IMG/VR virus record: IMGVR_UViG_3300001356_000003
Span: 1 to 54,977 of that record
Strand: one strand, 5' to 3'
DNA from: a virus
DNA: 54,977 bases
Under the pieces are notes generated by a model. The model had not been told where the DNA came from, searched no databases, and saw only the letters and a list, made by a program, of their open reading frames with translations. The translations under genes and the position numbers were made by a program. Below, piece by piece: positions 1 to 20,586 of the stretch (positions within the stretch are counted from its first letter, which is position 1; the number at the start of each line of letters is the position of its first letter).

Positions 1-592
1 CCGCCGCAACCGCCGGCCGCTGGAGCGTCTCGAGCACACTGCTCACAGGGGTCGTCGGGGCGATCGGCGGCTTGCTCGCGATCTCGGAGAGCACGGCCGC
101 TCTCCACCGCGCGAACTCACTCGCGGTCGGGTGGATCCCGTCGCGGAGCTGCAGGTTGAGCGTGCGCGAGTCGAAGTACCGATCGCCTAGCACGGACTGG
201 AGATGGGCCGGTGCTGCGCCGTCCTTCCCGCGAATCGACGGCGGTCCCACCCAGAGGGTCGACGCACCGGCGGCCTCGATGGCTTTCACGATCGCGGTCG
301 GGTCGGGCTTGCTGTCGTAGTCGTTCGAGCCGAGGAAGACGATCACAGTATCGCCTCTCGAAATGCCGAGCGTCGGCACGATGGCCGCGAACTCGGACGT
401 GTGTGCCCCGACCTTGCAGTGGACGCGCGCGGGCGTGCCGTTGAGATCGATGGTTTTGGTGGTCAGGTTCGGGGCACCGGTGGCGCCGCATGCCTGCGAG
501 TCGCCGATGACAAAGAGATGCGGCGTCACTTCATCAAGACCGAAGCCGACGGTTCGGTTTCCGGCGAACGAGATGGATTCTGCGAGGTGCAT
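1..592 (-). CDS. SGNH/GDSL-type hydrolase, 3' end outside window
   Basis: The frame starts at ATG 592, ten bases after the upstream transglycosylase stop, with a GAGGA Shine-Dalgarno between them; it runs off the window edge. It shows three SGNH blocks in order: GDSQ (nucleophile Ser, about residue 33), GSND (block III) and DGIHPT (catalytic Asp-x-x-His). The family are secreted esterases or lipases, often acting on acylated polysaccharide or peptidoglycan. Its N-terminus, ISFAGNRTVGFG, matches a motif shared with four small proteins at 18.5-20.6 kb. It is the last visible gene of the minus-strand operon, next to lytic enzymes, so a role in envelope penetration or release is inferred. Substrate unknown. 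Confidence 0.8.
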   Translation of the reverse strand, partial: MHLAESISFAGNRTVGFGLDEVTPHLFVIGDSQACGATGAPNLTTKTIDLNGTPARVHCKVGAHTSEFAAIVPTLGISRGDTVIVFLGSNDYDSKPDPTAIVKAIEAAGASTLWVGPPSIRGKDGAAPAHLQSVLGDRYFDSRTLNLQLRDGIHPTASEFARWRAAVLSEIASKPPIAPTTPVSSVLETLQRPAVAA

Positions 593-602
593 CACGTTCC
601 TC

Positions 603-1400
603 TTACGTCGCCGCCGCAGGTACGCGTTGCAGTGCCGGCACGCGTCGCGCGGGTCGGCTAGTCAGGGTGACCGCTCCCCAGGCCACGACTCCGGCAGCGG
701 CCACGATCGCGATCCCCGTCAGGATCGGTCGCAGCTTGATCGGTCGACGGACGAGCGGGATCCCGGTCGCGACCCGTTCCTTCGTGCCGTCGAGCATGGC
801 GTTGATTTTGCCGGTGATGTCCGCCTTCGTGATGTAGCCCTTGTGCGTGCTGTCGAATCCGGCGTTTTGCGTGTAGATGGCGCTTCCTGTCCGGCCCATC
901 ACTGCGTCGTCGGACGCTCCGATGAACGCGGGGTAGAGGACGGCCAGGTAAGCGTCCGAAAGGCTCTTCATCTTGCCCGCGTGGGGCGCGAAGTAGCGCT
1001 CGACCAGCTTCATCTGCTGGGGGAAGCTCATCGCTTCGAGCTGCCGGATCGCCTCTTCCGGCGTGGACGTGCCGAGGAGGTTCTGGGCCGTCTTTGGCAT
1101 GAACTGAATGAGGCCCGTTGCTCCCGACCCGGCCGCGTTCTTCTGGGTCGGGGAGAACGTTCCGCCGGTCTCGAAGTTGATGATGGTGGCGAGCCAGTCC
1201 GGTTCAATGCCGATAGTGTTGGCCGTCTCGGTGATGGACTGCAGTTCGCTTACGGAGAGCTTCTTGATGCCTGGGAAGGCGGGGAGCGTTTCTTCGCCAC
1301 CTTTGCTGCCGCTCCACCAGTTCCCGAGGCCCGGGGGCGGGACGACGCAACTGATGAGCGTCCGCGGCGGGGCGACGTCTTCCCACGAGCTGACGTGCAT
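603..1400 (-). CDS. Lytic transglycosylase (SLT fold) with C-terminal membrane anchor
   Basis: 265 aa. Residues about 55-125 carry an SLT lysozyme-like core: INFETGG with the presumed catalytic Glu, followed by SGATGLIQFMPKTA, the GLIQF/MP signature of soluble lytic transglycosylases that cleave peptidoglycan between MurNAc and GlcNAc. Near the C-terminus a hydrophobic helix (IAIVAAAGVVAWGAV) is followed by an Arg-rich tail, so the enzyme is probably tail-anchored rather than secreted; no N-terminal signal peptide is seen. The start follows AAGGGG about seven bases upstream. It lies between a peptidoglycan-binding membrane protein and an SGNH hydrolase. Virion-associated muralytic proteins with membrane anchors are known in membrane-containing phages; that parallel is inference. 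Confidence 0.85.
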   Translation of the reverse strand: MHVSSWEDVAPPRTLISCVVPPPGLGNWWSGSKGGEETLPAFPGIKKLSVSELQSITETANTIGIEPDWLATIINFETGGTFSPTQKNAAGSGATGLIQFMPKTAQNLLGTSTPEEAIRQLEAMSFPQQMKLVERYFAPHAGKMKSLSDAYLAVLYPAFIGASDDAVMGRTGSAIYTQNAGFDSTHKGYITKADITGKINAMLDGTKERVATGIPLVRRPIKLRPILTGIAIVAAAGVVAWGAVTLTSRPARRVPALQRVPAAAT

Positions 1401-1414
1401 CCGTCAACCCCTTT

Positions 1415-2413
1415 TCAGCCCCTCACGGGTCTGATTTCGACGCGCTTGTTCCAGCCGCGTCGGTCGGCTTGCTTCTCGTAGTGATCCTTGAGCCTCTCTG
1501 CTTCCGCTTGGGTGTTCGCGGGCGCGACCACTTCTGGATGCGAAGACCCCTGGTTGAAGACGAGTACTTGGTACCCGATTACGCGTCGCGCCTCGCTGGC
1601 CGCAGGCAGTGCGGTTCGCGGCTTCTTCTTGCCGTACGCCCCCGCGATCGCCGCCACGGTCCCACCGACCACCGCCGCTGCCGCGACGCCGATGCCGATC
1701 TTCATGGGCATGGGCAGGGTCGACAGAGCCGACAAGCAAAATACGGTGCCGGGGTACGGCGTCGGGAAGTCGGTCGCGTGCTGCCTTGTGACGGTCAGGA
1801 GCGCGCAGAGCGTGTCGCGGTCGAGCATCCCGTCGGTGCGCAGGCCCGGGTTCACGTTCGTGTTGAACCAGCCTTGGAAGCACGCGACCGCCGCGGGCTG
1901 CGCCTTGGTCGGGTCCGATGGCCAGGTTGCGCAGGGCTTGCTCCCGGCCTTGAGGATAAGCGCGTTGAGCTGCGTGAGGGTGGACAGCACCCACTGCGCC
2001 TCGGCGTCGGAGAGCTTGATTCCTGGTCCTGCGGCGGCTGCCGGTGCCTGCCCGAGCGTGCCGCTACGACGGACCGTCTCGCCGATGCCGCCAATGCCGG
2101 AGCTCATGAACCGGTTGCCGATGCAGAGCGAGTTCTGCGTCCACTGCGGCACGATGCGCCCTGCGTTGTCAGTGGCCTTATCGAGGACGTTGTCTTTCCA
2201 CCAGCAGTCGGCCTTGCGAATGTCGCGGTCGGTCGGTCCTTGGATGGGGACATCGTCGATCCAATCGCCGTAGGTGCCGTCGTCGTGCATGATCTGAGCG
2301 GCTTGCCGGGGCGTTGGCGATCCCGGTTCGAGGACGCAGGCCTTGGGGACCAGGATCCGCGGAAACTCGCTGCATCCGCCTCCGCACCCGCCGACTCCGG
2401 TTGTCTTCGTCAT
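1415..2413 (-). CDS. Peptidoglycan-binding-like membrane protein
   Basis: 332 aa. I chose ATG 2413, which overlaps the upstream stop as TGATG, over longer in-frame starts. The N-terminal third is Cys-rich (GGCGGGC). About residues 150-195 (CFQGWFNTNVNPGLRTDGM followed by LDRDTLCALL) resemble a PG_binding_1 helix bundle, which binds cell-wall peptide or glycan. One transmembrane helix follows (KIGIGVAAAAVVGGTVAAIA), then a basic KKKPR stop-transfer and a roughly 60-aa C-terminal domain rich in charged residues. Directly upstream of the transglycosylase in the same operon, it probably positions the lytic machinery at the wall. The peptidoglycan-binding call rests on weak pattern similarity. Confidence 0.6.
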   Translation of the reverse strand: MTKTTGVGGCGGGCSEFPRILVPKACVLEPGSPTPRQAAQIMHDDGTYGDWIDDVPIQGPTDRDIRKADCWWKDNVLDKATDNAGRIVPQWTQNSLCIGNRFMSSGIGGIGETVRRSGTLGQAPAAAAGPGIKLSDAEAQWVLSTLTQLNALILKAGSKPCATWPSDPTKAQPAAVACFQGWFNTNVNPGLRTDGMLDRDTLCALLTVTRQHATDFPTPYPGTVFCLSALSTLPMPMKIGIGVAAAAVVGGTVAAIAGAYGKKKPRTALPAASEARRVIGYQVLVFNQGSSHPEVVAPANTQAEAERLKDHYEKQADRRGWNKRVEIRPVRG

Positions 2414-3399
2414 CAGGGCACGTCCTCTCCCAGATTCTCGTCGAAGACGAGCGACCCCGCAATCCGGCCGTACTGCGCGGTCGTGTTGAAGGCGGTCAGA
2501 AACTGGTCTTCGGACCCTGTGCCGAGCGCCGTAAACTGATTGGCCGACAGGTCGCTCGCGGCCGGGTTGGTCGACGGGTCGTTCTGCCGGACGCTCGCGA
2601 AGAACGCGATGTCGCACGGCAGCGGCACCGGGATGTCGAGCATCTGTTCGAGGTAGCCGGTACGCCAGCGGTACCGCATGTCGTGCATGTTGCCGAGGCT
2701 CACGCTCCCAAGCGGCTTGCCCCACGGCCGGCCGGCGTTCGGGGGCTTGTACGCGGTCGGCGCGAACTGCGGGCCTGCGATCGTTTCGTAGAGCATGCAC
2801 GGCCCGTAGGCGTCGCGGAACTTCAGACTGTCCGCGTTCTGGACGTTGCGAGTCAGCATCCAGGTCTTCGGGATCATCACGATGTGCCAGGAGATGTTCC
2901 CGTCGGGCGGATGCCAGAGTGGACTCATGATCTCCTTACGGAAGGTCCCGACATCCGAAACGGTTGCGGTGAGCTCCGCGTACATCCGGATGCCTGTCAG
3001 TCGCACCCCCTGCTCGCCGGAATTGAACTGCTCGCGAGCGAGCAAGAAGAGGTACCGGTACTGCGACGGGGGTGCTCCGGTCGGAACGAGCGTGGCCGTT
3101 GGCGTGGAGGGGACGAGGACGCCGGTACCGACGGGCGATCCCCACGGGTCGCTGCCGAGCAGCGAGACAAACGGATCGATCGTCGCGGGGACGATCTCGT
3201 GGCGACCGGACCAGAGGCGCGTGCGGACTCCATAGCCGACCCCGTTCGGGTCGCGCTGCAGGTCGAGTAGCCTCACCTCCAAGTCGCCGCGCCGCCCCCT
3301 CGACGGCGGCACGATGGCTTTGGGGTCTGTCCCGTGCTGACCGACCCCGATGGGTTCGGCCTGCAGATCGGTTAGCTCCGCCGCCTGGTCGTCGCGCAT
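2413..3399 (-). CDS. Putative structural protein, 328 aa
   Basis: No recognised family. It has mixed beta-rich composition with many Trp, Tyr and Pro, no signal peptide and no membrane segment. Its C-terminal region (ADSLKFRDAYGPCMLYET onward) looks like a folded globular domain. It ends in a TGATG overlap with the peptidoglycan-binding gene and sits just downstream of the 198-aa and 438-aa genes, so it probably belongs with them as a minor capsid, vertex or spike component. That assignment is by position only. Confidence 0.45.
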   Translation of the reverse strand: MRDDQAAELTDLQAEPIGVGQHGTDPKAIVPPSRGRRGDLEVRLLDLQRDPNGVGYGVRTRLWSGRHEIVPATIDPFVSLLGSDPWGSPVGTGVLVPSTPTATLVPTGAPPSQYRYLFLLAREQFNSGEQGVRLTGIRMYAELTATVSDVGTFRKEIMSPLWHPPDGNISWHIVMIPKTWMLTRNVQNADSLKFRDAYGPCMLYETIAGPQFAPTAYKPPNAGRPWGKPLGSVSLGNMHDMRYRWRTGYLEQMLDIPVPLPCDIAFFASVRQNDPSTNPAASDLSANQFTALGTGSEDQFLTAFNTTAQYGRIAGSLVFDENLGEDVP

Positions 3400-3411
3400 C
3401 CGCTCATCCCC

Positions 3412-4008
3412 TTACGGTTTGAGCAGCTCGGCCAGATCGGGGGACTCGATGCCGAGCTTTCTCAGCCGGCAGCGTGCGTCGGTATCGCTCATGTCGTCCA
3501 TCACCTTGTCGAGGAATTGGAACCCGTTGAACAAAATGTGTACGTCGTACGGTACGCTCACCGGCGTCTGGAAAAGGACCGCGGCGATTTTGATGTTACT
3601 TTGTTTGAAAATCACCCAGCCAGACGGCCACGTGAGCTTGATCACGTCAAACAGGTTTGCGAGCTCGACGGGTCCGTCGCTGATGGCGTACTTCGGCCCC
3701 CCGTAAACGTCGAGCTTGATGCCGACGCCGGTCTGGGCCTTGAGGTACGCGAAGTACAGGCTCTGGAACGGGCTCCCAGGGAACGAGTTCTGCTGGAACA
3801 GCGTAAACGACACGTTGTCGATGACGGTGTCCGAGACGAGGTTGTTGTCGAAGCTCGTGATGATCGCGGGAGCATCGACTACGCTCGACGTGAACTGGAT
3901 CGGGAGGTCCGCGACGAACGGCACCCGAGGAACGCCCGCGACCATCCCATACGCGATCCGTGGGGCATAGAGGGCAAGGTTGCGGATGTCGTGGTCTCGC
4001 GGCTGCAT
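3412..4008 (-). CDS. Putative minor structural protein, 198 aa
   Basis: Unrecognised. The sequence alternates short hydrophobic and polar stretches (VPFVADLPIQFTSSVVD, VSFTLFQQNSFPGSPF), as expected of a beta-sandwich or jelly-roll fold, with no membrane helix or Cys. It is 12 bases upstream of the 328-aa gene and follows the 438-aa candidate capsid gene after about 100 bases. Size and position fit a second virion shell component; a beta-sandwich is an inference from residue pattern only. Confidence 0.45.
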   Translation of the reverse strand: MQPRDHDIRNLALYAPRIAYGMVAGVPRVPFVADLPIQFTSSVVDAPAIITSFDNNLVSDTVIDNVSFTLFQQNSFPGSPFQSLYFAYLKAQTGVGIKLDVYGGPKYAISDGPVELANLFDVIKLTWPSGWVIFKQSNIKIAAVLFQTPVSVPYDVHILFNGFQFLDKVMDDMSDTDARCRLRKLGIESPDLAELLKP

Positions 4009-4105
4009 GAGCTTCCTCCGGAATCAACGTACCTCAAAATTGAAACGAGAGGCGCGGCGCTCTCGCGACCACGCCTCTCGTTGATCCACTACGCGGTGAT
4101 CGAGA

Positions 4106-5422
4106 TCAGGCCGCGTGGGCTCGCATCATGCTCGGGTACTTTTCCGAGCAGTACGACTTCCATCCGCCAGGCATCTCCCAGCCCTTGATCTTGATGCCGA
4201 GCTTGAGGATGCCGCCCTTGAAGATTTGGCGGCTGTCGTTGACGACCTGCGACGCGTAAAGCGCCGTCCCGTCGAGTGTCTGCTCCATCATCGGCAGGGC
4301 CAGCGTAGGCAGGAGAGCGAGCACGGCGGCCGAGCTGAGGCTGGTGCTGCCTCCAGAGGTGACGGCGGCCAGGTTGACGTCCGGAAGGACGTTGATCCCG
4401 AACGGCTCGTTGTCGATCGTGAGCGCCTCGATCATCTGCGCCTGGTGCACGGCGTCCTGCGCGATGAAGATCATCCCGATGGGGATTCCGCGCTCGAGAA
4501 AGCACGGGCTCTCGACCGGTCGGTACATCTGTCCGCGGCAGCCGTACCCCTGCCACCGCAGGCCTCCCCAGGTGACCGGCGCGAGGTCGAAGTCGCGCGT
4601 CGGGTGGAAGATGCCGATGTTGACGCCGGTCGATGCTCCCGACGGGGTGAAGCTGCCGACCCGCCGGAAGTTGACCGGCAGGAAGATCGTGTCGGAACCC
4701 TGCGCGCGGTACTGCGCGTTGACGAGCGCGACGTAGTCGATGACCGGTAGCTCGCTCGTGCCGCTCGCTTCGGCGTCAGCGAACGATCCGAAGTACGAGA
4801 TGTCGGCCGCAAGCTCGTTGAGCACGAGCTCACGCTGCGACGTCTTCCACTGGAACTGGTAGGCGTTGATGAAGTTCCAGCCTGCGCGCCAGGTTGCCGC
4901 GCCGAACTCGAAAACCGCGGGGGTCACCTGATCGGGACCAGTCACGTAGGACCCGAAGGCGCCGTTTGCGTAGTCGTTGGCCGTCCAGACGTCCGGGCTC
5001 GGAGGGGAGCCGGTGGCGAGCTGCTGGGTCGGGGCGATGAACGCGTTGCCGATCGTGGAGAACGACATCGGCTCGCAGAAGACGTGCACGCCGATGCCCT
5101 GGGCGAGGATATCCGTCTGCAGGATACCGTTGATGAGGAACGTGCTGTCGATGCTCGCGACGCCGGGCACCGCGGACGACCCGCTGAGCGGGTTGACCGT
5201 GTCGCCGAACGTCGTCTGCGCCTGCTCCGCGGTCAGCGGCAAGGGGATCGTCCAGACCACCTCCTCGACGACGGGCACGTTGCCGAACCCGCATCGCAGG
5301 CACTTCTCTGCGGCCTTCTCGTCGCCGGGCGGAGCGCCCAGGCCGAACGGCACGCGCATCACCTTCTCGCGGCTCTCGCCGCCGTACTTGATCGACTTCT
5401 TCTGCAGCAGGTTCCTTGCCAT
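4106..5422 (-). CDS. Candidate major capsid/structural protein, 438 aa
   Basis: No family recognised by eye. After a short basic N-terminus (MARNLLQKKSIKYGG) and a possible zinc pair (CLRCG, residues about 42-46), the rest is long, beta-rich and neutral, with aromatic and Gly/Ser loops (GGLRWQGYGCRGQMYRPVES). It has no transmembrane segment and no HK97-type features such as a preceding protease or scaffold gene. Its central place in the operon, its size and the two smaller beta-rich neighbours fit a major shell protein. A double jelly-roll capsid, as in membrane-containing tailless phages of similar protein length, is one possibility but unproven. Confidence 0.4.
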   Translation of the reverse strand: MARNLLQKKSIKYGGESREKVMRVPFGLGAPPGDEKAAEKCLRCGFGNVPVVEEVVWTIPLPLTAEQAQTTFGDTVNPLSGSSAVPGVASIDSTFLINGILQTDILAQGIGVHVFCEPMSFSTIGNAFIAPTQQLATGSPPSPDVWTANDYANGAFGSYVTGPDQVTPAVFEFGAATWRAGWNFINAYQFQWKTSQRELVLNELAADISYFGSFADAEASGTSELPVIDYVALVNAQYRAQGSDTIFLPVNFRRVGSFTPSGASTGVNIGIFHPTRDFDLAPVTWGGLRWQGYGCRGQMYRPVESPCFLERGIPIGMIFIAQDAVHQAQMIEALTIDNEPFGINVLPDVNLAAVTSGGSTSLSSAAVLALLPTLALPMMEQTLDGTALYASQVVNDSRQIFKGGILKLGIKIKGWEMPGGWKSYCSEKYPSMMRAHAA

Positions 5423-5517
5423 GATCGCGCTCTCTTTCGATCCCCGCCGTTTCCCTGGTCCGCCGCGGGGGGTTGTGTGTGGCTAAAACGTTCTCTCGTG
5501 GTTGGTTTCTCTCGGCC

Positions 5518-8886: not shown

Positions 8887-8903
8887 GTCTTCAACGTTTT
8901 TCA

Positions 8904-8932
8904 AGATTCACAATGCGCTCTTGCAGCGTCAA
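8904..8932 (-). promoter_or_regulatory. Candidate promoter for the 8886-to-1 structural genes
   Basis: On the minus strand TTGACG (8932-8927) and GAATCT (8909-8904) are separated by 17 bases. The ATG of the 1,122-aa protein lies 17 bases past the -10 box. The GAxxCT -10 resembles those before the fibre genes at 38588 and 44517. Confidence 0.5.
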
Positions 8933-9166: not shown

Positions 9167-9200
9167 GGCATACTCAGGTATGTCTCGGGTATTCCCTATT
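9167..9200. promoter_or_regulatory. Dispersed palindromic element, copy 1
   Basis: GCATAC-tcag-GTATGT followed by a GGTATTCCCTATTT block. It is the most diverged of three same-orientation copies; the others are at 21915 and 38125. It lies in the non-coding gap between the transglutaminase-like gene and the 1,122-aa gene. Confidence 0.55.
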
Positions 9201-12310: not shown

Positions 12311-12416
12311 AGCTCGTAGCCTACGCGCGACCCATCGGAGCGTCTAGCCTTCGTCCATCCTGCGCTCGTCGCGCCCTCGCTGCGTACGGCGGACGACGGT
12401 GGTTCATGGGAAGGAG

Positions 12417-12593
12417 CTACTCCGGCTTCGGTTGCAGCGCCACCGGGTCGCCGACCATCTTGATGCCCTCGGCCACGATCGCCGTCTTCGCCATCGGATC
12501 CTTGAGGAGCTTCTCGAGCCTCTTTGCCCAGTCGACCGCCTGCTGCGAGCCAGTCGCGTCGACGGAGACCTTCATAAAGATCGTGAACCGCAT
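12417..12593 (-). CDS. Small hypothetical protein, 58 aa
   Basis: Starts at ATG 12593 in a TGATG overlap with the preceding zinc-ribbon gene. MRFTIFMKVSVDATG begins like a beta-strand; the rest is charged helix (WAKRLEKLLKDP). No family recognised. The 106 bases between its stop and the LysM start hold no convincing gene. Confidence 0.55.
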   Translation of the reverse strand: MRFTIFMKVSVDATGSQQAVDWAKRLEKLLKDPMAKTAIVAEGIKMVGDPVALQPKPE

Positions 12594-13261
12594 CACGCCC
12601 CCTCGTTGGGAGGTGGCGATCCACCCATCCCAGGCCCTGGCGTGCGAATCGGCGGCGGTGTGACGATCGGCGGCTGCTCTCTCTCGTGACAGAGCGTGTG
12701 CCCGCAGTACCGGCAGACGGTGCGCTGCAACCCATTGAACGTCGCGCACTGGCAGCAACCGACCCCCTCCTCGGTCTGCCGAGTCCCCTCGATGGGGAAG
12801 CATCGCTCGATTCCATTGGTGCCACCGGAGCGGATGCCCTGCACGTTGCCTGGACTGGCCGGACCGTTCGCGCCAGGAGTCCCGTACGGCACTGCCCCAG
12901 GCCCGTAGGGACCTGGGGGTGCCCCAGGCCCGTAGGGACCTGGGGGTGCCCCAGGCCCGTAGGGACCTGGGGGTGGGTACCCAAACCCAATGGGTGCCAT
13001 CCCCGGACCGAATCCCGGTCCGTACCCAGGCGGGTGCGTGGGAACCGGACCGCGCTTGCGTTGCTGCTGCTGCTGCATCACCACCCGGCTGCCAGCCTGC
13101 ATGCCTTGCTGGAACAGGTTCATCGCGAACGCGGCGGCCTGCGGGTCGGTAAGCGCGCCCTCCATGCTACGCCACGCGGCACCGAGTACTTTCAGGAGCA
13201 CGTCGGCCGCGTACTCCTTCAGCTCGTCGTCGGTCACCTCCATATTTACGCTGAACTTCAC
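12593..13261 (-). CDS. Gly/Pro-rich linker protein with zinc-ribbon tail
   Basis: 222 aa from GTG 13261 (GTGA overlap with the upstream gene). The N-terminus is an acidic helical domain (VTDDELKEYAADVLLKVLG, residues 8-26). A Gln run and a Gly/Pro/Tyr-rich spacer with three GPYGPGAPP units follow. The C-terminal domain has Cys pairs CCQC and CRYC spaced like a zinc ribbon, then Pro-rich sequence. The spacer is encoded by a perfect 27-bp tandem repeat. Function unknown; the build suggests a flexible scaffold or adaptor. Confidence 0.6.
   Translation of the reverse strand: MKFSVNMEVTDDELKEYAADVLLKVLGAAWRSMEGALTDPQAAAFAMNLFQQGMQAGSRVVMQQQQQRKRGPVPTHPPGYGPGFGPGMAPIGFGYPPPGPYGPGAPPGPYGPGAPPGPYGPGAVPYGTPGANGPASPGNVQGIRSGGTNGIERCFPIEGTRQTEEGVGCCQCATFNGLQRTVCRYCGHTLCHEREQPPIVTPPPIRTPGPGMGGSPPPNEGA
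12894..12974. repeat. Three perfect 27-bp tandem repeats
   Basis: The unit begins GCCCCAGGCCCGTAGGGACC and repeats at 12894, 12921 and 12948. It encodes the GPYGPGAPP spacer of the 222-aa protein. Perfect identity suggests recent expansion or slippage. Confidence 0.9.
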
Positions 13262-15111
13262 CGCGGCATCCCCCACGCCCGCTTCGGCGGTGCGGCTGCG
13301 GGCGGCGGTTCTGCGATCGGTGGCGGCATCTCGGCCGGCGGTTCGGGCAACGCCTCCTGCGCAGACGATGGGATCTGGTCGACCGGGACCGCGACGAAGC
13401 CCTCCGGCGGTTCGTAGCCGGGTCCTACCCTGACGTAGCCGGGCGGCAACTGCTGCTGCTCTTGCCGTTTCTCGTTGGCCTTGCGGATCTCCGCCCGCTG
13501 CTCGCCGACCCACTTGAGGATGTCGGGCAGATTGGCCATGAACGTCTCGACGCCGCGCAGGCTTCCGTCCTCCCGGTTGATGACCCCCTTGGCCGGCCCC
13601 ATGTCGATGACGCGGACGGGGCTGTCGTCGTCCTCGGGCGGTGGCGGTTCGGCGGCTGCGCCACCGAACCCGAATTCGCGCGCGACTTCGATCGTGTCGC
13701 GGAAGACACTGGCCGCTTCGCGGAGCTGCTGGGATGGCGTCTGCGGGCGCGCGGGCGGTGAATAGGGCGATCGGGGATCGTACGGCGGCGCATTCGGGTC
13801 GCGCGGATCGGACGGACCCGGGTAGCGCGGCCGGTAGTACGGTCCGCCCGCGGGCGATGCGCCGGCTCCGCGCTGGGCCGTCTGCATCATCGTCAGCATC
13901 ATCTCGAACATCTGCTTCTGCATCGTCAGCATCGCCGTGGTCGGGTCCGTCGCTGGCGGTGGAGCGACGAACACCGGCGGCGTCGCGGGATGCGCCGGTC
14001 GCGCGTGCCCGGCCGCTGTCGCCTGCATCGCTTGCATCATCTCGAACAGTTGCTTCTGCATCGCGAGCATCGCCGCCGCCGGGTCGGGCGGGGCGGTCGC
14101 CGGTGGCGGCGGAGCCATCGGTTGGGGCGGCGGCGGTGGCGGCGGCGCGTGCCCGGCGGCCGTCGCCTGCATTGCTTGCATCATCTCGAACAGTTGCTTC
14201 TGCATCGCGAGCAGCGGGGTCGCCTGATCGACCGGTGCCTGGGGAGGAGCTGCAGGCGGCATGGGCGGCGGAGCGGTCACGGGCTTCGGAGCCATCGCCT
14301 GCATCATCTCGAAGAGCTGGCGCTGCATGGTGAGCAGCGTGTTCGCGTCGAACGGCGCGCCGGCTATAGGAGCGGCAGGAGGCATCGGGGGCGCCGCGTA
14401 CGCCGTGGGCATCTGCGCGTACGGCGGCGCGTACGGCGGTGGATAGGGCTGGGGCACAGCAGGAGCGCCGGGCGGCAAGGGGTCGCCCAGCGTGCTCGGC
14501 ATCGAGACTTGCCCCCCGTTGCCGTGGCCGGCCCCGTCGCGGAAGGTGACCTCGTAGGTGGTCTCTCCCGCTCGGCCGTGCAAGAGTTTGATCGCGTCGT
14601 ACAGCTCGTTGGCCGTGCGCGGGCGGCTGGTGATCATCCACTGCGCCGGCGTGCCGGTCTTTCTCTCGACGGCAATGGTCTGCGCTGCTGCCGGGAAGAG
14701 CCGGATCGTCTCTTCGAACGCGAGCAGGATGTTGCCGTCGGCGGCGTGCGACGCGGGCGGGATAGCCAGAGCGGGCGGCGGACCGGCAGCGGGCGGAGCG
14801 GGTGTGTTCATGGGGAGGATCGGGTCGGGAGAGGGTGGCGGCGCGGGGGGCGGTGCACGACGACGGCGAGGCGGTGGAGCGGCGTTGTTGGGGGCGTCGA
14901 GGCGGCGGCGAGGTCGCCGATCGGGAGGTGCTGGAGGTCGGTTGGCGGGCTCGCCGGAGTCGTTCGTCGGCGGATCGGGTCGGCGACGAGGAAGTCGCAC
15001 CAGCCTCTGATCGGTCGTGGACGTGACGGCGTCATCTTCCGTCTCGTCCGGGTCCTCTTCCTCCTCCTCTTCTTCAGGATTGTCTTCGTCGCGATCGTCC
15101 GGCGGCGGCAT
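13258..15111 (-). CDS. Proline-rich scaffold-like protein with four MQ-x-QLFEMM repeats
   Basis: 617 aa. An acidic N-terminus (poly-Glu/Asp, about 8-27) leads into a basic Pro-rich segment (about 40-95) and a small globular region (about 120-200). Four copies of a Met-rich amphipathic helix, MQKQLFEMMQAM-type, lie near residues 260, 300, 350 and 395, separated by long Pro/Ala linkers. A helical C-terminal domain follows (TFMANLPDILKWVGEQRAE, about 525-550) and the protein ends Pro-rich. No catalytic motif. Repeated short helices on flexible linkers suggest multivalent binding of one partner, such as a scaffold for assembly. No family recognised. Confidence 0.6.
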   Translation of the reverse strand: MPPPDDRDEDNPEEEEEEEDPDETEDDAVTSTTDQRLVRLPRRRPDPPTNDSGEPANRPPAPPDRRPRRRLDAPNNAAPPPRRRRAPPPAPPPSPDPILPMNTPAPPAAGPPPALAIPPASHAADGNILLAFEETIRLFPAAAQTIAVERKTGTPAQWMITSRPRTANELYDAIKLLHGRAGETTYEVTFRDGAGHGNGGQVSMPSTLGDPLPPGAPAVPQPYPPPYAPPYAQMPTAYAAPPMPPAAPIAGAPFDANTLLTMQRQLFEMMQAMAPKPVTAPPPMPPAAPPQAPVDQATPLLAMQKQLFEMMQAMQATAAGHAPPPPPPPQPMAPPPPATAPPDPAAAMLAMQKQLFEMMQAMQATAAGHARPAHPATPPVFVAPPPATDPTTAMLTMQKQMFEMMLTMMQTAQRGAGASPAGGPYYRPRYPGPSDPRDPNAPPYDPRSPYSPPARPQTPSQQLREAASVFRDTIEVAREFGFGGAAAEPPPPEDDDSPVRVIDMGPAKGVINREDGSLRGVETFMANLPDILKWVGEQRAEIRKANEKRQEQQQLPPGYVRVGPGYEPPEGFVAVPVDQIPSSAQEALPEPPAEMPPPIAEPPPAAAPPKRAWGMPR

Positions 15112-15120
15112 GGTGGGCCC

Positions 15121-15564
15121 CTACGTCGTTGCGCTCGGACCGTTGGTGCCTGGGGTCGGTGCGGGCTCCGGCTCCGGCTCCGGCTCCGGTTCCTCCGGTT
15201 CCGGCTCATCTTCGTCTTCCTCGGCGATCGTAATGAACTCGACGAAGGTGTCCTCGCTCATGGCCTCGTCGAAGAATCGAATGCAGCGTTCCGGAATGAC
15301 CGTGCGCACGAACATCTTGCCGTCGCTCGAGTACACCTCAATCCCGCCGTCTTCGCGGGAGTACATCCGCACGATCTTGGCCTCGGTCGCGAGCGGGTGC
15401 GGATGGTTCAGGATCCACACCGTGAGCTCTTTGTCTCCATCCGCGGTGAGCGAAGCGGTGACCAACCGGACCAGCGCCGTCGCGTCCGGGCTCGGTTGCG
15501 GCAAGAGACGTTCGACCGGGAGGATGGACGGACCGACATCGCGGGGGAGGTTGCTAGGCGGCAT
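15121..15564 (-). CDS. Hypothetical protein with acidic EPEP tail, 147 aa
   Basis: A compact alpha/beta domain (about 25-110; ELTVWILNHPHPL, KMFVRTVIPERCIRFFDE) is followed by a tail of alternating Glu and Pro (DEDEPEPEEPEPEPEPEPAP). No family recognised. It lies ten bases upstream of the proline-rich repeat protein in the same operon and probably works with it. Confidence 0.5.
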   Translation of the reverse strand: MPPSNLPRDVGPSILPVERLLPQPSPDATALVRLVTASLTADGDKELTVWILNHPHPLATEAKIVRMYSREDGGIEVYSSDGKMFVRTVIPERCIRFFDEAMSEDTFVEFITIAEEDEDEPEPEEPEPEPEPEPAPTPGTNGPSATT

Positions 15565-15603
15565 GGAAAGTTTGGCTCCGTGGGAAATGGGTGCAGACGA
15601 ACT

Positions 15604-16302
15604 TCACAAATCCTCGGGTGGTTGCAGAAGACCCGCCTCAACAAAACTGAAGTACGACGGTTTCTCTACAGTCCCACCCACGATGATGTGGTCCATCAGG
15701 TGGACGTTGATGACCTCGCACGCGTCTGCGAACGCCTCGGTCGTCTCCTTGTCCGCGTCGCTCGGCTCGGCCGGCACCCCAGAGGGGTGGCAGTGGCAGA
15801 GGATGATGGCGTGCGCACCGTCAATAAGTGCTGCCTGCAGCGTCGGCACCATTGGCGCCATCACGGCGGACGGTTCCCCTCGACCGGTCTCGGCGATGCT
15901 CTTCATCCTCAGATGCAGATCGAGGGTGACGATCCCGAAGACCTCGTTGACCTCGTCACCGATGGCCTCGCGGATTAGCTTGAACGCTTTTTTCGGATCA
16001 TCGAGCGGTCCGATCGAGTCGGCGAGTGCGTTGCAGGCCGCGAACCGCTCTTGGTCCTTCTGGACCGTCAGAAACGGGCGGCACTTCGATCCGTTGCCGG
16101 CTCCAAGGACCACCGGGTCGGCTCCCGCGTCCGCGAGTGCAACCTCGTGGGCGTCGTCCTTCATCCGGGGACGCCGGCCAGTTCGTTGACTGGATCGCAC
16201 CGCGCGCTCGGCGAGGGTTCGCGCCAACGCCGGCTCGTGGCAGGCGCACCCGCGCCGCAGGCGGCTGATCGCCGACGGGTCGTACGCGCTCCGGGTAATC
16301 AT
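15604..16302 (-). CDS. radC: RadC/JAB (MPN) domain protein
   Basis: 232 aa from ATG 16302, which has a strong AGGGGA site; GTG 16314 would give a GTGA overlap instead. The C-terminal half has the RadC-type JAB metalloprotease-like signature HCHPSG followed by PSDADKETT (His-x-His ... Ser/Asp zinc ligands), with VFGIVTLDLHLR before it. RadC proteins are common on phages and plasmids; their biochemical role is unsettled. The unusual N-terminal 80 residues, rich in Arg and Cys (RLRRGCACH), are not part of standard RadC. Its place inside a putative virion operon is unusual. Confidence 0.85.
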   Translation of the reverse strand: MITRSAYDPSAISRLRRGCACHEPALARTLAERAVRSSQRTGRRPRMKDDAHEVALADAGADPVVLGAGNGSKCRPFLTVQKDQERFAACNALADSIGPLDDPKKAFKLIREAIGDEVNEVFGIVTLDLHLRMKSIAETGRGEPSAVMAPMVPTLQAALIDGAHAIILCHCHPSGVPAEPSDADKETTEAFADACEVINVHLMDHIIVGGTVEKPSYFSFVEAGLLQPPEDL

Positions 16303-16310
16303 GGGTCCCC

Positions 16311-16694
16311 TCACGCCGCCGCTGCCGCGCGCTCGACGACAATTCCGAGCGACGGCGCCGCCCGCGGGTCGTCGAACGGCACGTACGCCTTGCCGTTCTC
16401 GGTCTGCACGTAGAAATCGTCGAGGCTGGTCCAGTCTCGGACGATGAGCACAACGTCGTCCTCTTCGACGAACGGTCGAACCGAGGTTCCTCCGTCCATC
16501 TGGATGATGTGGATCTTCCTTGGCAGCACCACGTCGCCCGCCCGCAGCCCTCTCTCCTCAAAATCAGAACCGACGGCGTCGAGCAGCATGAATTTCGTCG
16601 TCTCCTTCGTCTCGTCCGTCCGCACGATGGACGAGGAGGGGGGCCGGACGACGATGCGGCCGATCGCCTGACCGCGTCGGGGTTCGAACTTCAT
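16311..16694 (-). CDS. GroES-like co-chaperonin-fold protein
   Basis: 127 aa, ATGA overlap with the upstream gene. The pattern GRIVVRPP, then AVGSDFEERGLRAGDVVLP, then VEEDDVVLIVRD follows the GroES order: first strand, AVG...VGD-V turn, and a closing EE-hhh strand. A Thr/Glu-rich stretch (SSIVRTDETKETTK) sits where the mobile loop that contacts GroEL would be. Phages such as T4 encode substitute co-chaperonins (gp31) for capsid folding, so this location fits. Similarity is by pattern only and the C-terminal 25 residues are extra. Confidence 0.5.
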   Translation of the reverse strand: MKFEPRRGQAIGRIVVRPPSSSIVRTDETKETTKFMLLDAVGSDFEERGLRAGDVVLPRKIHIIQMDGGTSVRPFVEEDDVVLIVRDWTSLDDFYVQTENGKAYVPFDDPRAAPSLGIVVERAAAAA

Positions 16695-17140
16695 GGGGCT
16701 TTCTCCTTGAGCTTTGGGGTGGGGTCGTCGAAAGGCGGCATCGTCACCGCGGCGCCGCGCAGGGTTTCGAGCTCCGCCTGGCATGCCGCGAGATCCGCGA
16801 CGATGGCCGAGAAGGTTTCCCGGCTCGGCGCCGTGTACGGCTGCGCGAGCTTGGAGGCGACGGGCGGTGCCAACTGGTGGGCGGCGCTGAGGATCACGAG
16901 CGCCGACATCCGGATCTCGCGATCGGGGCAGTCGGGCAGGCAGGACTCGGTCTCGACCGATTCGGCGGGGCAGCCCGTCATGTGCGCGCAGCGCGCGAGG
17001 ATCTCGGCCGCTTGCTTGCCGGCAATCTCCAGGGCGACCTTGCTCTTCCAGAGCGCGAGCTTCTGGCCGAACCAGACCCGATTGTCGACGGTGGTGCGCG
17101 GTTCAGGGCCGAACCCCATCATGTGCTGCGAACGGTTCAT
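16691..17140 (-). CDS. Hypothetical protein, 149 aa
   Basis: ATG 17140 forms ATGA with the RHH gene stop, which is why the longer in-frame start is rejected. Mostly helical, with a Cys cluster (CAHMTGCP ... CLPDCPD) in the middle and a Pro-rich C-terminus. No family recognised. It is the second gene of the minus-strand operon. Confidence 0.5.
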   Translation of the reverse strand: MNRSQHMMGFGPEPRTTVDNRVWFGQKLALWKSKVALEIAGKQAAEILARCAHMTGCPAESVETESCLPDCPDREIRMSALVILSAAHQLAPPVASKLAQPYTAPSRETFSAIVADLAACQAELETLRGAAVTMPPFDDPTPKLKEKAP

Positions 17141-17346
17141 GTGGTCACTCCGTCCGGTTCGCGGATTCGAATGTAGCCATCGCTCGGCTGCCTGGCCGCG
17201 GACTGCGCCGCCTGCAGGAGCACCGATCGCATCCACACGGAGACGCGCACGCCGCAGTGCTTCGCACGTTGGCTGATAAGCCGCCGCTGTTCGGGGGTCA
17301 TTTTGATCGTCGCAACCTCGGTATAGATGATGGCTCGCGATGACAT
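17137..17346 (-). CDS. Ribbon-helix-helix DNA-binding protein
   Basis: 69 aa. TEVATIKMTPEQRRLISQRA gives the short strand then helix A, and VRVSVWMRSVLLQAA gives helix B: the RHH/CopG layout of small dimeric repressors. It is the first gene of the long minus-strand operon. Palindromes in the upstream region (17390-17407, 17432-17443) overlap its promoter, so autoregulation of the whole operon is likely. RBS GAGGG is directly before the ATG. Confidence 0.65.
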   Translation of the reverse strand: MSSRAIIYTEVATIKMTPEQRRLISQRAKHCGVRVSVWMRSVLLQAAQSAARQPSDGYIRIREPDGVTT

Positions 17347-17366
17347 CCCTCGGACCTACGCCGGGA

Positions 17367-17443
17367 ACTCTGCGGTAGTGCGTGTGACCTCGTCAATCGA
17401 TCGACGAGCGTCCACGCACGATTCTTCGCATGGTGTAGACACC
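17367..17443 (-). promoter_or_regulatory. Promoter and palindromic operators of the minus-strand operon
   Basis: On the minus strand TTGACG (17396-17391) and CAGAGT (17372-17367) are 18 bases apart, 20 bases before the RHH start codon. TCGTCAATCGATCGACGA (17390-17407), a near-perfect 18-bp palindrome, covers the -35 box. GGTGT-ag-ACACC (17432-17443) is a second dyad upstream. Both are plausible RHH-binding sites. Confidence 0.5.
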
Positions 17444-17479
17444 GTGATCGCATCGTGGAAACATGAACTCCAGAAACCG

Positions 17480-17680
17480 ATGCCCACCATCCCCGCCGCG
17501 ACCCTCCGCCGCCTCTCCGCCACGCACGACGTCGACCCCCGATCGATCTTGCGCGAGCTGCGCGAACCCGGGAGCGTGCGTGGGATGGCCGGCGAGCGGG
17601 CGAGAAAGGCCGTGGGCGCGTACCAGGCAGCCAAGAACGGATCCGAGACACAGACAGCAGCGGCAGCGCGAATACGGTGA
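17480..17680 (+). CDS. Small helical protein, 66 aa
   Basis: Divergent from the RHH gene. TIPAATLRRLSATHDVDPRS resembles a short helix-turn-helix or helical hairpin; the rest is Arg/Ala-rich. A longer in-frame start exists at 17327 but overlaps the RHH gene. No family recognised. Confidence 0.4.
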   Translation: MPTIPAATLRRLSATHDVDPRSILRELREPGSVRGMAGERARKAVGAYQAAKNGSETQTAAAARIR

Positions 17681-17691
17681 TTTTCCGGCAT

Positions 17692-17720
17692 TTGCGCTAG
17701 AATTATGCAGCCGCTACACT
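17692..17720 (+). promoter_or_regulatory. Promoter of the Fic module, leaderless type
   Basis: TTGCGC (17692-17697), 17-base spacer, TACACT (17715-17720), then eight bases to ATG 17729. Transcription should start at or next to the start codon. Confidence 0.55.
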
Positions 17721-17728
17721 AGACGACC

Positions 17729-17908
17729 ATGACCCGCGAACTCGCCCGACTGATTCGAGAGTCGCGCCCGATGACCGAGGCGGAGCGCGAAGAGCAGTCG
17801 CGCAACTTCGTCGTCGGAAACATCGGCCTGGAGAATCCTCGGGTAACGCGTGAGATCGTCGACATCGCAGCGGAGAGGTTGCGCGAACGCCGCCGCATGT
17901 CCGGCTAG
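17729..17908 (+). CDS. Fic antitoxin, VbhA-like
   Basis: 59 aa, overlapping the Fic start by one base (TAGTG). EEQSRNFVVGNIGLENPRVT aligns by eye with class I Fic antitoxins such as VbhA, whose inhibitory helix reads (S/T)xxxE(G/N). Here the motif is NIGLEN, so the Glu-Asn pair is kept but the Ser/Thr is replaced by Asn. Class I antitoxins place this Glu in the Fic ATP site and block AMP transfer. The operon layout of antitoxin followed by toxin is standard. Confidence 0.75.
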   Translation: MTRELARLIRESRPMTEAEREEQSRNFVVGNIGLENPRVTREIVDIAAERLRERRRMSG

Positions 17909-18534
17909 TGGGGTGGGGGTACGACGACGATTCGGACGAACCCGAGATCCGTGAGGCCGAAGGCGGCCTTGAGCAACTGCGGATGGTACGACAGTGGATG
18001 CGTCAATCTCTACGGTCACCTGCGTACCGAACGCTGACGCCGCGGATGATCCTCCGCCTTCATCAAGTTGCAATGCAGGATATTCTTCCGAACGCCGGTC
18101 GATGGAGAACAAGCGACGTCGAAATCTTCGGATCGCACCATGAGCCTCCGCCGTATGTGGACGTCGACCGTCTTGTGCAAGACGTGTGCACCTTCGTCAA
18201 CGAGTACGATGCCGAGGACGAGAGTGAAGCGATGTTTCTCGCTGCCTTCGTCATGTGGAAGATCGCGTGGATTCATCCGTTCGACGACGGCAACGGTCGA
18301 ACCGCCAGGGCCGTATCCTACTTGATCATGTGCCAGAGACTCGGCAAGGAACTCGGTGGCGAAAGTCCCGTACCGCAGCGAATCAAGTACGCTCCCATTG
18401 CATACGTCCGAGCGCTGGAAGCCGCTGATCGCGCTTGGGCCTCCGGAGTCATCGACGTGTCACGCCTGCAGCATCTCATTGAGTTCTGCCTCACCGCGCA
18501 GCTCCGCAACGACCCTCCGACACTCCCGGACTAG
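17908..18534 (+). CDS. fic: Fic-domain AMPylating toxin
   Basis: 208 aa from GTG 17908. The full Fic motif HPFDDGNGRTAR is present (catalytic His about residue 123), with NAGRWRTSDVEI upstream as in other Fic proteins. Fic enzymes move AMP from ATP to a hydroxyl of a target protein; class I toxins such as VbhT and FicT AMPylate topoisomerases. No inhibitory (S/T)xxxE(G/N) motif is evident in this chain, consistent with inhibition by the 59-aa partner. Probably an element-maintenance or host-inhibition module. Confidence 0.92.
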   Translation: MGWGYDDDSDEPEIREAEGGLEQLRMVRQWMRQSLRSPAYRTLTPRMILRLHQVAMQDILPNAGRWRTSDVEIFGSHHEPPPYVDVDRLVQDVCTFVNEYDAEDESEAMFLAAFVMWKIAWIHPFDDGNGRTARAVSYLIMCQRLGKELGGESPVPQRIKYAPIAYVRALEAADRAWASGVIDVSRLQHLIEFCLTAQLRNDPPTLPD

Positions 18535-18547
18535 CCCGTGGTACGTT
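18517..18547 (+). promoter_or_regulatory. Leaderless-type promoter
   Basis: TACGTT at 18542-18547 lies seven bases before GTG 18555; a weak -35 (CCGACA, 18517) overlaps the fic 3' end. The -10 and its spacing match the boxes before 19678 and 20284. Confidence 0.4.
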
Positions 18548-18554
18548 GAACGGC

Positions 18555-18944
18555 GTGCAAGACGGCATCCACCGCAACGGGCGGCTGGTCATCGGGTTCG
18601 GCCTCGGATCGATGCCGCTGCCCGAGTGGGTCGCGACGCGCAACAAGCTCCAGGACATGGATCGCCTCATCGCTTCTGGGCGAGGGGACGCGCTGGTCGA
18701 CGGGGGCGGCTGCACCGAACCGGGCGGCGGGATCGTGCCCACGCAGCGCACCGCGCTCGAGATGGCGAATCTCTTGCGCGGACGGATGAGCACTGGAGTG
18801 GGGCACCTCGATGCGCCGGCGACGGCTGCGCCTCCCCACCCGTCGCCGTGGAAGTACGCCCTGGTCATGAGCCTCGTCTCTACGGCGACCGGATGGGCCC
18901 TCGAAGAAATTGCTCGGCGGACGTTTCGGAGGAAGCGAAAATGA
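18555..18944 (+). CDS. GFG-motif protein with C-terminal hydrophobic helix, 129 aa
   Basis: Start GTG 18555, chosen because it sits seven bases after a TACGTT box and places the motif IHRNGRLVIGFGLG at the N-terminus. A Gly-rich middle (GGGCTEPGGGIVPTQ) is followed near the C-terminus by YALVMSLVSTATGWAL, a probable membrane or membrane-surface helix, and a strongly basic end (RRTFRRKRK). Ends in ATGA with the next gene. First of four consecutive genes sharing the N-terminal motif. Function unknown; a membrane-anchored particle component is inferred. Confidence 0.6.
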   Translation: MQDGIHRNGRLVIGFGLGSMPLPEWVATRNKLQDMDRLIASGRGDALVDGGGCTEPGGGIVPTQRTALEMANLLRGRMSTGVGHLDAPATAAPPHPSPWKYALVMSLVSTATGWALEEIARRTFRRKRK

Positions 18945-19657
18945 TCACCGAATCGATTCGATTCCGCGGCCGTGCCGTTGCTGGCTTTCTCGGAGCCGCC
19001 GCGCCGCCGCAGTCCGCGGTCGTCGCCGCAGTCCTCGCGTACCGCGGCGCGTGGGATCCGTACGTCCTCGGAATGCTCCGAAACATGACGACCGTGGCCG
19101 ACTCGTTCGACATGGTGGCGGCTCACCCACCGACCGGATTCACCACCGACGAGCTGAAGAAGCTGGGCGCCGCGTACCGCAATCAGGCGCAGACCATGCT
19201 CGCGGCGTGGAACCAGTTCGCCGGGCTGACGCCGAACCGGATCGAAGAACAATCCGGCATCATTCTCAAGTCCTGGGAAGACACGATTACGCGGATCAGC
19301 AACCTCGCCGCCGACGAAAAGGTCGACAAGTTCGCGCCCGGCATGAAATGGCCGGATCCACCGTCGCCGGACGTGCAACGCAAGGTGCTCACCGACCTGC
19401 AGTCTGTGGCCATCGATGCGGACTTTCTCGGGATCCTTGGCCTGGTCGGTTCACGGGGACTCCAGAAAATCGGGAACATCGCGACCGAAGCCCTCGAAGG
19501 GGCCGCAGCAGCGGCGGGGAAAGCTGCCAGCAACCTGATCCCGTGGCAGCTCTGGGTCGTGGTCGGGGTGGTGGTGGTCGGCGGTGTCGTCGCGGCGGTC
19601 AAACTCGCTCCTGTCGCAGCCGCCGCGTACCTGCCGCCGCGTAGACCAGCCGCCTGA
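18941..19657 (+). CDS. GFG-motif tail-anchored protein, 238 aa
   Basis: ATG 18941 overlaps the previous stop (ATGA) and follows GGAGGAAGC. The N-terminus IRFRGRAVAGFLG is a variant of the shared motif. A mainly helical domain (about 45-190) is followed by one strong membrane helix (LWVVVGVVVVGGVVAAVKLA) and a short Arg/Pro tail. No catalytic motif. Probably inserted in a membrane by its C-terminus with the helical domain in the cytoplasm or inside a particle. Confidence 0.65.
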   Translation: MITESIRFRGRAVAGFLGAAAPPQSAVVAAVLAYRGAWDPYVLGMLRNMTTVADSFDMVAAHPPTGFTTDELKKLGAAYRNQAQTMLAAWNQFAGLTPNRIEEQSGIILKSWEDTITRISNLAADEKVDKFAPGMKWPDPPSPDVQRKVLTDLQSVAIDADFLGILGLVGSRGLQKIGNIATEALEGAAAAAGKAASNLIPWQLWVVVGVVVVGGVVAAVKLAPVAAAAYLPPRRPAA

Positions 19658-19670
19658 AGCGGCGTACGCT
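19642..19670 (+). promoter_or_regulatory. Leaderless-type promoter
   Basis: TAGACC (19642), 17 bases, TACGCT (19665-19670), then seven bases to ATG 19678. Confidence 0.55.
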
Positions 19671-19677
19671 GGTCCGC

Positions 19678-20250
19678 ATGCTCCAGTTCAACGGCCGACC
19701 GGTGGCCTGGTTCGGCGTGGGCGCGCCCGATGTCATCGGTCCGGGCATCGCAGCGCTGCAGGCTGCGTTCGCGCAGTACCGCAGCCCGAGAATCACCAAT
19801 CCGAACAAAGCAGTCGCCGACCTGCAGGCGGCGGGAAACGCGGCGGTCAGTGTCGTGGGTCCCGCCATCGACGCGCTGTCCGGCGGCAGCCCCGACGTCA
19901 TGAAGAGGACGCAGCTCGTGTGGCAGAAGAACGGAGAGCTCGCGAACATCACGGGGGCTACCGGTTCGGACGTGGAGATGGCGAAGGGGATCGTCCACGA
20001 CATGATCGACGCCTACCAGCAGGCAGCGAGCCTTGCGGCGTCTCTCGCATCAAAGACGGTGCCGAGAGGATCCGCGCCGCCTCCGAGACTGCCGGGAGGG
20101 TCTCCCCCTGCATCCGATGCGCCCCAGCAGGGCGGCTTTCTCGATTGGTTCGCGGAGAACACGACCACCGTCCTGCTTGTGAGCGGTGCCGTCGTCGTCG
20201 TTGGAGGCGTGGCGCTGGCGGCGGCCGCCCGCACCCGCGCGACTGCGTAG
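19678..20250 (+). CDS. GFG-motif tail-anchored protein, 190 aa
   Basis: N-terminus LQFNGRPVAWFGVG is the shared motif. Residues about 15-120 are helical; about 120-155 are Pro/Ser-rich linker. The C-terminus is one membrane helix (VLLVSGAVVVVGGVALAAAA) and a short basic tail (RTRATA). It has its own leaderless-type promoter. Same architecture as the 238-aa neighbour; function unknown. Confidence 0.65.
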   Translation: MLQFNGRPVAWFGVGAPDVIGPGIAALQAAFAQYRSPRITNPNKAVADLQAAGNAAVSVVGPAIDALSGGSPDVMKRTQLVWQKNGELANITGATGSDVEMAKGIVHDMIDAYQQAASLAASLASKTVPRGSAPPPRLPGGSPPASDAPQQGGFLDWFAENTTTVLLVSGAVVVVGGVALAAAARTRATA

Positions 20251-20276
20251 ACGCGCTCGCCGAACCGTCGTACGCT
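20248..20276 (+). promoter_or_regulatory. Leaderless-type promoter
   Basis: TAGACG (20248), 17 bases, TACGCT (20271-20276), then seven bases to ATG 20284. Same hexamers and spacing as at 19642. Confidence 0.55.
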
Positions 20277-20283
20277 CGAGGGC

Positions 20284-20586
20284 ATGGAACGCATCCAGTT
20301 CGGCGGCCGACCGGCTCCCGGGTTCGGCGTGGGCCTCGCGCCGCAGAGCACTTTCGCCAAACCTGCGGCGGAATCGAGCATCCTCTCCGTGCCCGCTGGC
20401 AAGGTGGGGGCCTTCGTCGGCGGCGCCGCGATGTCCGCCGCCGCCGCCGCCTTTGCGACGACGTTCTTCGGGGAGGGGACCAACCTCGGCGGCGTCCGCG
20501 GCGTCGCCACGCGCCTGCAGCGCAACTGGAAAATCCTCGCTGCCACCGCGGTCGCGGGCGGCGTCGTCGGCGCCGTCGTAAAGTAG
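20284..20586 (+). CDS. GFG-motif small membrane protein, 100 aa
   Basis: N-terminus IQFGGRPAPGFGVG is the clearest copy of the motif. An Ala/Gly-rich hydrophobic stretch (about 40-62) and a C-terminal helix (KILAATAVAGGVVGAVVK) suggest two membrane spans. It ends ten bases from the convergent Phd-like gene. Function unknown. Confidence 0.6.
   Translation: MERIQFGGRPAPGFGVGLAPQSTFAKPAAESSILSVPAGKVGAFVGGAAMSAAAAAFATTFFGEGTNLGGVRGVATRLQRNWKILAATAVAGGVVGAVVK

Follow-up and report, generated by a model that had tools for sequence, protein, structure and literature searches.

The IMG/VR virus record IMGVR_UViG_3300001356_000003, analysed here over its whole length (54,977 bases, without flank; hereafter the window), carries in its first 20,586 positions a set of genes that a first-pass annotation had read as the possible virion operon of a large, membrane-containing and tailless virus. 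We hold with moderate confidence that the window belongs to a new lineage of large, tailless, probably membrane-containing bacterial viruses. The genes that matter most for this reading are the following.

603-1400, minus strand: SLT lytic transglycosylase of 265 amino acids (PF01464), with a C-terminal anchor at residues 226-244 and a basic tail
1415-2413, minus strand: anchored protein of a conserved family, earlier named peptidoglycan-binding, with a C-terminal anchor and a basic tail
2413-3399, minus strand: conserved candidate minor capsid protein of 328 amino acids (32 of 32 records)
3412-4008, minus strand: conserved candidate small capsid or penton protein of 198 amino acids (32 of 32 records)
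4106-5422, minus strand: candidate major capsid protein of 438 amino acids (33 records; jelly-roll-like AlphaFold model)
5518-8904, minus strand: histone/protamine-like protein of 1128 amino acids with a hydrophobic middle, by its lysine plus arginine (K+R) content a candidate DNA-condensing or membrane-linking protein
9355-10035, minus strand: transglutaminase-like enzyme (PF01841, E 3.3e-4)
11222-12310, minus strand: anchored protein, earlier named LysM, with a C-terminal anchor and a basic tail
18546-18944, plus strand: GFG protein with a weak C-terminal hydrophobic segment and a strongly basic tail (hydropathy)
19678-20250, plus strand: GFG protein with a C-terminal anchor and a short basic tail (3 of 3 family members listed)
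20284-20586, plus strand: GFG protein with weakly hydrophobic segments (hydropathy)
24331-29500, plus strand: collagen-like (GPTGATG) fibre proteins, recognized by sequence, with a Gly_rich_2 domain in the first
44517-46622, plus strand: collagen-like fibre protein, recognized by sequence

The 438-residue frame had been singled out as a candidate shell protein with smaller partners. It is a real and strongly conserved gene, and both partners exist and are conserved. Relatives of the 438-residue protein were found in 33 distinct IMG/VR records besides the window, at 41–100% identity (six scans of viral contigs). Among the resulting 34 records, the search for the 198- and 328-residue genes took 32, leaving out the short L009 and L012, and each gene was found in all 32. 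The order transglutaminase-438-198-328, on one strand, is kept in 13 of the 14 records that were read whole (G002 being counted as a circle), and the fourteenth ends before the transglutaminase gene. The 198-residue gene is tandemly duplicated in G021 (69850-70527 and 70533-71123).

Relatives and form of the genomes

The lineage is clearly defined, unclassified and known only from metagenomes. No relative of the 438-residue protein was found in species genomes and genome contigs (two pattern scans), among GenBank phages or on 72,556 plasmid records, and the 198-residue, 328-residue and transglutaminase-like proteins likewise had no match among GenBank phages. When 23 proteins of the array and its relatives were scanned against PHROG, a single protein matched a single PHROG (E 0.097). 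No description of this virus group was found in the open-access literature searched.

The window is an inner part of a larger genome, since most of its genes recur at 99–100% protein identity, in reversed order, in the 117,665-base record that contains it (G011). Exact direct terminal repeats (127, 87, 127, 127 and 123 bases) were found in five of the 14 records read whole, namely G002 (124.6 kb), G020 (116.3 kb), G014 (111.5 kb), G023 (85.6 kb) and G025 (79.6 kb). Because of these repeats the five records look complete and circular, although they are metagenome assemblies that are listed as linear or unclassed and come without a completeness estimate. In G002 the structural array runs across the record ends, which fits a circle. 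The genomes of the lineage are thus probably circular, judging from these sequences.

The G+C content of the window is 65.6% and the standard genetic code fits its lineage; a recoded genetic code was considered and dropped (6 in-frame stops per 78,563 aligned residues in 14 records). The replication genes of the relatives are of viral type and comprise DNA polymerase A, primase, helicases, ThyX, dCMP deaminase and integrase, the DNA polymerase of G014 being only 22–24% like the phage polymerases listed. It is worth mentioning that G020 and G011 share the structural array with G002 and do not carry many of the G002 replication genes; this combination suggests an exchange of whole modules. As regards the host, the peptidoglycan enzyme points to bacteria. 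Its closest relatives are from Variovorax and Pseudomonas phages (about 50% over 54% of its length), a weak hint of Gram-negative hosts. A transfer-messenger RNA (tmRNA) gene lies at 43795-44152 on the minus strand of the window (Rfam RF00023, 68.9 bits; not reported by ARAGORN). It has no plasmid match, and another such gene is present in G002 (65.1 bits), with none seen in six other stretches scanned.

Candidate shell, wall enzymes and basic proteins

A first AlphaFold model of the 438-residue protein, for which 25 sequences were used, most of them close, had a low score (predicted local distance difference test, pLDDT, 46.3) and its fold search was meaningless. The AlphaFold2 model of residues 24-438 from 30 sequences is of medium confidence (pLDDT 67.4, predicted template modelling score, pTM, 0.69). 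In Foldseek, the leading PDB entries for this model were papillomavirus L1 proteins, which have a jelly roll (best E 0.08, TM-scores close to 0.1), and capsid proteins were common among the BFVD rows at E above 0.05. VIA-align 2, which ranked 277 chains preselected by Foldseek, placed at the top PRD1 P3 (Z 6.0; 164 residues, 6.2 Å), SPV1 (Z 5.7; 146 of 178 residues, 4.1 Å, model range 1-406), PR772 (Z 5.6), the iridovirus SGIV (Z 5.5) and STIV (Z 5.4), a Z under 8 being one that may mean only a common arrangement. HK97 chains are absent from 50 VIA-align rows, which proves nothing, the HK97 fold being still compatible with this comparison.

From end to end, the model aligns with single jelly-roll domains (STIV, SGIV, faustovirus and FLiP), so that two jelly rolls are less likely than one that carries long insertions, as far as a model of medium confidence allows. 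No internal repeat was found in the profile of the 438-residue family, a weak test for which a null is expected even after an old duplication. When jelly-roll capsids were compared with the candidate shell protein, as the first-pass annotation had suggested, they did lead the neighbours, below significance, and with a single rather than the double jelly roll being favoured. Both the capsid role and the fold are putative and derive from the model. Comparing the profiles of the 438-, 198- and 328-residue families with one another gave no match, and no PDB profile match was found for family A1 or for the 328-residue family. The PDB profile match of the 198-residue family (E 1.6) is a chance one, and those of family A3 with two virion structural proteins (E 0.84 and 1.2) were judged to be chance as well.

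The transglycosylase label is borne out by PF01464 just above the cut-off (E 1.7e-4, 21.6 bits versus 21.3). The enzyme resembles P7 of the tectivirus PRD1: both have 265 residues, with the SLT domain first, then a hydrophobic segment (226-244 in the window protein versus 221-239 in P7) and a short tail, and a local similarity of 29% over 55 residues. The PRD1 membrane-associated transglycosylase reportedly acts in DNA entry, going by the title of a 2000 paper by Rydman and Bamford.

At least six proteins of the window had been described as carrying C-terminal anchors with basic tails. By hydropathy this is clear for four (603-1400, 1415-2413, 11222-12310 and 19678-20250), and two others have only weaker C-terminal segments (18546-18944 and 20284-20586). 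The feature is conserved among the relatives listed. A segment and a net basic tail are present in all ten BLAST relatives of the 11222-12310 family (among them a tail of just one residue and another of 61), in 11 of the 12 relatives of the 1415-2413 family (the twelfth is a 68-residue open reading frame, ORF, that looks spurious), in all five of the transglycosylase family (one segment being weak, 1.44) and in all three of the 19678-20250 family. The names LysM and peptidoglycan-binding were not confirmed, such Pfam models matching none of the 18 members of the 1415-2413 and 11222-12310 families.

The description of the 1128-residue protein as histone-like agrees with its composition, K+R making up 37–42% of residues 181-420. 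Seven counterparts, chosen by the same position, reach 41–51% K+R in their best 100-residue window. For the transglutaminase-like protein, PF01841 scores 21.4 bits, slightly less than the 23 that its cut-off requires. Residues Cys113, His147 and Asp163, which we take to be the catalytic ones, are invariant in the alignment of this family, which comprises 11 of its 13 members; the two left out cross piece borders. In G012 (L063:10898-12529) an intein-like insert lies directly before the conserved Cys of the transglutaminase-like protein, and another one, with Intein_splicing and Hint matches, is found in a UvrD-like helicase of G002 (L038:16667-19087).

Tail, head and packaging genes, and the rest of the window

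The first-pass annotation had seen no terminase, portal or tail gene in the window, and the models run on the relatives agree with this. Terminase models found no match (PF03237 Terminase_6N in 27 records and in the window, PF04466 Terminase_3 and PF03354 TerL_ATPase in 28 records each), nor did the single portal model (PF04860 Phage_portal, 28 records), the single capsid model (PF05065 Phage_capsid, HK97 type, 32 records) or the single tape-measure model (PF10145 PhageMin_Tail, 32 records). Each of these models matches 3–7 of 14 control genomes (3–10 when FtsK_SpoIIIE is counted). The flanks had been considered the place where such a module could still lie; with the Pfam models used, neither a terminase or portal nor an HK97 capsid or tape measure was detected in the probably complete terminal-repeat records. 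A weak match to phrog_2, a presumed terminase family, was seen in one of 28 records (568-residue ORF, E 1.1e-4) and was given no weight. This family may not be a terminase family, because it matches 11 of the 14 control genomes. Pfam scans of 95 and of 80 further proteins listed replication, nucleotide, sugar and integrase functions; of the families on view (25 of 26 and 25 of 37, respectively), none has to do with tails, heads, relaxases or secretion.

A HerA-like ATPase was detected in six records in total, three of them among the five terminal-repeat records: PF05872 HerA_C matched three of 28 records (G002, G004 and G009) and our own HerA profile five of 14 (G002, G004 in part, G005, G014 and G023). 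Some of the P-loop patterns seen in G020 and G011 belong to helicases (ResIII and UvrD relatives). FLiP and SPV1 are likewise described in PMC8812541 as being without packaging ATPases.

The other features of the window are as follows.

2-661, minus strand: GDSL/SGNH hydrolase-like protein, truncated at the edge of the record (PF13472 below cut-off, E 0.0047)
10026-11339, minus strand: TnpB (IS605 OrfB) insertion, not a member of the module (PF01385, E 1e-22)
13258-15111, minus strand: proline-rich array protein of 617 amino acids (similar protein in 3 of 13 other records)
15121-15564, minus strand: conserved acidic-tailed protein of 147 amino acids (9 of 13 other records)
15604-16314, minus strand: RadC-like JAB domain protein (PF04002, E 9.7e-25; 12 of 13 other records)
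16311-16784, minus strand: conserved protein of 157 amino acids, probably the one earlier named GroES-like (9 of 13 other records)
16691-17236, minus strand: conserved protein of 181 amino acids (10 of 13 other records)
30073-38102, plus strand: epimerase-, methyltransferase- and glycosyltransferase-like genes, named by eye

Positions 1-20586 do not form the one operon that had been supposed. They hold two arrays, on the minus strand (2-17236) and on the plus strand (17327-20586, for the genes kept), and the structural array is interrupted by the TnpB gene, which has no relative in five other records compared. The GroES-like name finds no backing either, the 157-residue protein being without a Pfam match. 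The G002 counterpart of 33339-38102 matches PF00535. A Fic/DOC family protein (17908-18534, plus strand, E 1.1e-18) is located within the plus-strand array. Two small overlapping ORFs on the minus strand (20596-21158) look by eye like an antitoxin and a RelE/YafQ-type toxin, and an HNH endonuclease with an AP2 domain, perhaps a homing endonuclease, lies at 22004-22777 (minus strand).

Nature of the lineage

The anchored transglycosylase, the basic tails, the protamine-like protein and the fibres together suggest a virion equipped with anchored proteins that cut the wall. The viruses would have circular double-stranded DNA genomes of about 80–125 kb and infect bacteria. Their tailless shell would be built from the jelly-roll-type 438-residue major protein with the 198- and 328-residue partners. 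The transglycosylase and two more families would be anchored by their C-termini in a membrane that most probably lies within the virion. Their basic tails would face DNA condensed by the protamine-like protein, and collagen-like, perhaps glycosylated fibres on the outside would bind the host. Upon entry, the shell may open, the membrane proteins may cut the wall and the DNA may pass through, as in PRD1. What has been observed is which genes are present and conserved, the hydropathy signal of the anchors, and that none of the models tested for terminase, head and tail proteins gave a match. From this we infer the lipid, the absence of a tail, the placement of the anchors, the entry route and the bacterial host.

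Several known groups share part of these traits. The portoglobovirus SPV1, whose 178-residue jelly-roll chain is among the closest to the 438-residue model, has single jelly-roll capsid proteins, circular double-stranded DNA and a condensed nucleoprotein core (PMC8459092). These are the traits predicted here from genes and model, whereas its circular genome has only about 20 kb and its host is an archaeon (Sulfolobales). P23-77 (Helvetiavirae) resembles the lineage in its adjacent small and larger capsid genes, its circular genome and its transglycosylase, to which its virion lysozyme adds a further wall-enzyme likeness. It differs in its 17-kb genome, its packaging ATPase and its capsid proteins VP16 and VP17, with which no profile match was obtained. 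For its halophilic relatives, the families Simuloviridae and Sphaerolipoviridae, published abstracts give genomes of 16–30 kb. A bolder proposal, which we put forward only tentatively and consider doubtful, is that of a high-rank bacterial lineage with genomes of 80–125 kb, a single jelly-roll shell, an internal membrane and a protamine-condensed circular genome, without a universal packaging motor and of an origin separate from that of PRD1; it would be a bacterial large-genome counterpart of the big jelly-roll viruses of eukaryotes.

Several results weigh against a tailless virus with a jelly-roll shell. Foldseek gave no match to the 438-residue model at E 0.001, all VIA-align leaders lie below significance, and unrelated chains stand within the first 14 (the UBR4 complex at Z 5.0 and an arabinofuranosidase at Z 4.4). 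Profile comparisons of the 438-residue family with PRD1 P3 and P23-77 VP17, and of the 198-residue family with VP16, were null. The hydropathy screen is unspecific, as it also flags inner segments of the 438-residue, 1128-residue and transglutaminase-like proteins, and the records have 0–8 anchor-like proteins each, partly outside the array. Anchored wall enzymes could moreover serve lysis and not entry. Tail fibre, tail and baseplate names occur among the PHROG families listed (25 of 87 and 25 of 88). As for the packaging ATPase whose search had been advised, the HerA-like enzyme was detected in only six records; G020 and G025, both with terminal repeats like three of the six, and the window's own G011 gave no match, and FtsK_SpoIIIE matched none of 32 records.

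An alternative that overlaps the reading of a new tailless lineage, and differs from it in shell fold and origin, is that of an enlarged PRD1-like member of the Bamfordvirae with a double jelly roll, in which the HerA-like ATPase was lost or replaced in some branches. PRD1 P3 at the head of the VIA-align ranking, the HerA-like ATPase in six records and the P7-like transglycosylase speak for it, and an FtsK/HerA packaging ATPase is usual, not universal, in this kingdom. The collagen-like motif that PMC6750898 reports in the spike P5 of the tectivirus PR772 is a further likeness, and it contradicts the earlier premise that PRD1-like phages lack collagen fibres. However, single jelly-roll domains map over the whole 438-residue model, no internal duplication was seen in the (weak) profile test, and the P3 capsid protein has no profile match with the family. 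Tectiviridae have a linear 14.9-kb genome with a terminal protein and the packaging ATPase P9, as opposed to 79.6–124.6 kb with direct terminal repeats here, and a large survey gives about 7–18 kb for prokaryotic double jelly-roll viruses (PMC5894146). We regard this alternative as unlikely.

A very divergent member of the Caudoviricetes, with tail, head and terminase too distant for the hidden Markov models used and with the 438-, 198- and 328-residue proteins as fibre, baseplate or decoration, seems quite unlikely to us. Phage-type replication, nucleotide and integrase genes and collagen-like fibres are shared with this class. The transglycosylase falls into a baseplate hub family of PHROG (E 2.5e-36), tail families are among the PHROG families listed, many genes are orphans, and portal, capsid and tape measure were each searched with a single model. 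Yet these models and the three terminase models, positive in the controls, failed in 27–32 records, and the families listed for the 95 proteins held no tail or head family.

A non-viral mobile element (a large plasmid or integrative element) encoding a cell-surface or extracellular structure is improbable: a ParB domain in G002, integrases, circular-looking records, a capsid protein that is only a candidate and a packaging ATPase that is not universal would suit it, against which stand the phage-type nucleotide and replication genes, the lack of relaxase and secretion families among those listed and the lack of 438-residue relatives on plasmids. A eukaryotic virus was dropped as an explanation, given the peptidoglycan enzyme and the tmRNA.

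The idea of a large tailless virus thus survives the checks that were run, is partly supported by them and gains a defined lineage. The conserved 438/198/328 gene trio provides a marker for finding such viruses in metagenomes. If jelly-roll shells indeed package 80–125 kb in this lineage, large size in such viruses would not be restricted to eukaryotic hosts. The absence of a shared packaging motor would then also be relevant to the question of whether jelly-roll shells preceded packaging ATPases, as has been argued from SPV1 and FLiP (PMC8812541).

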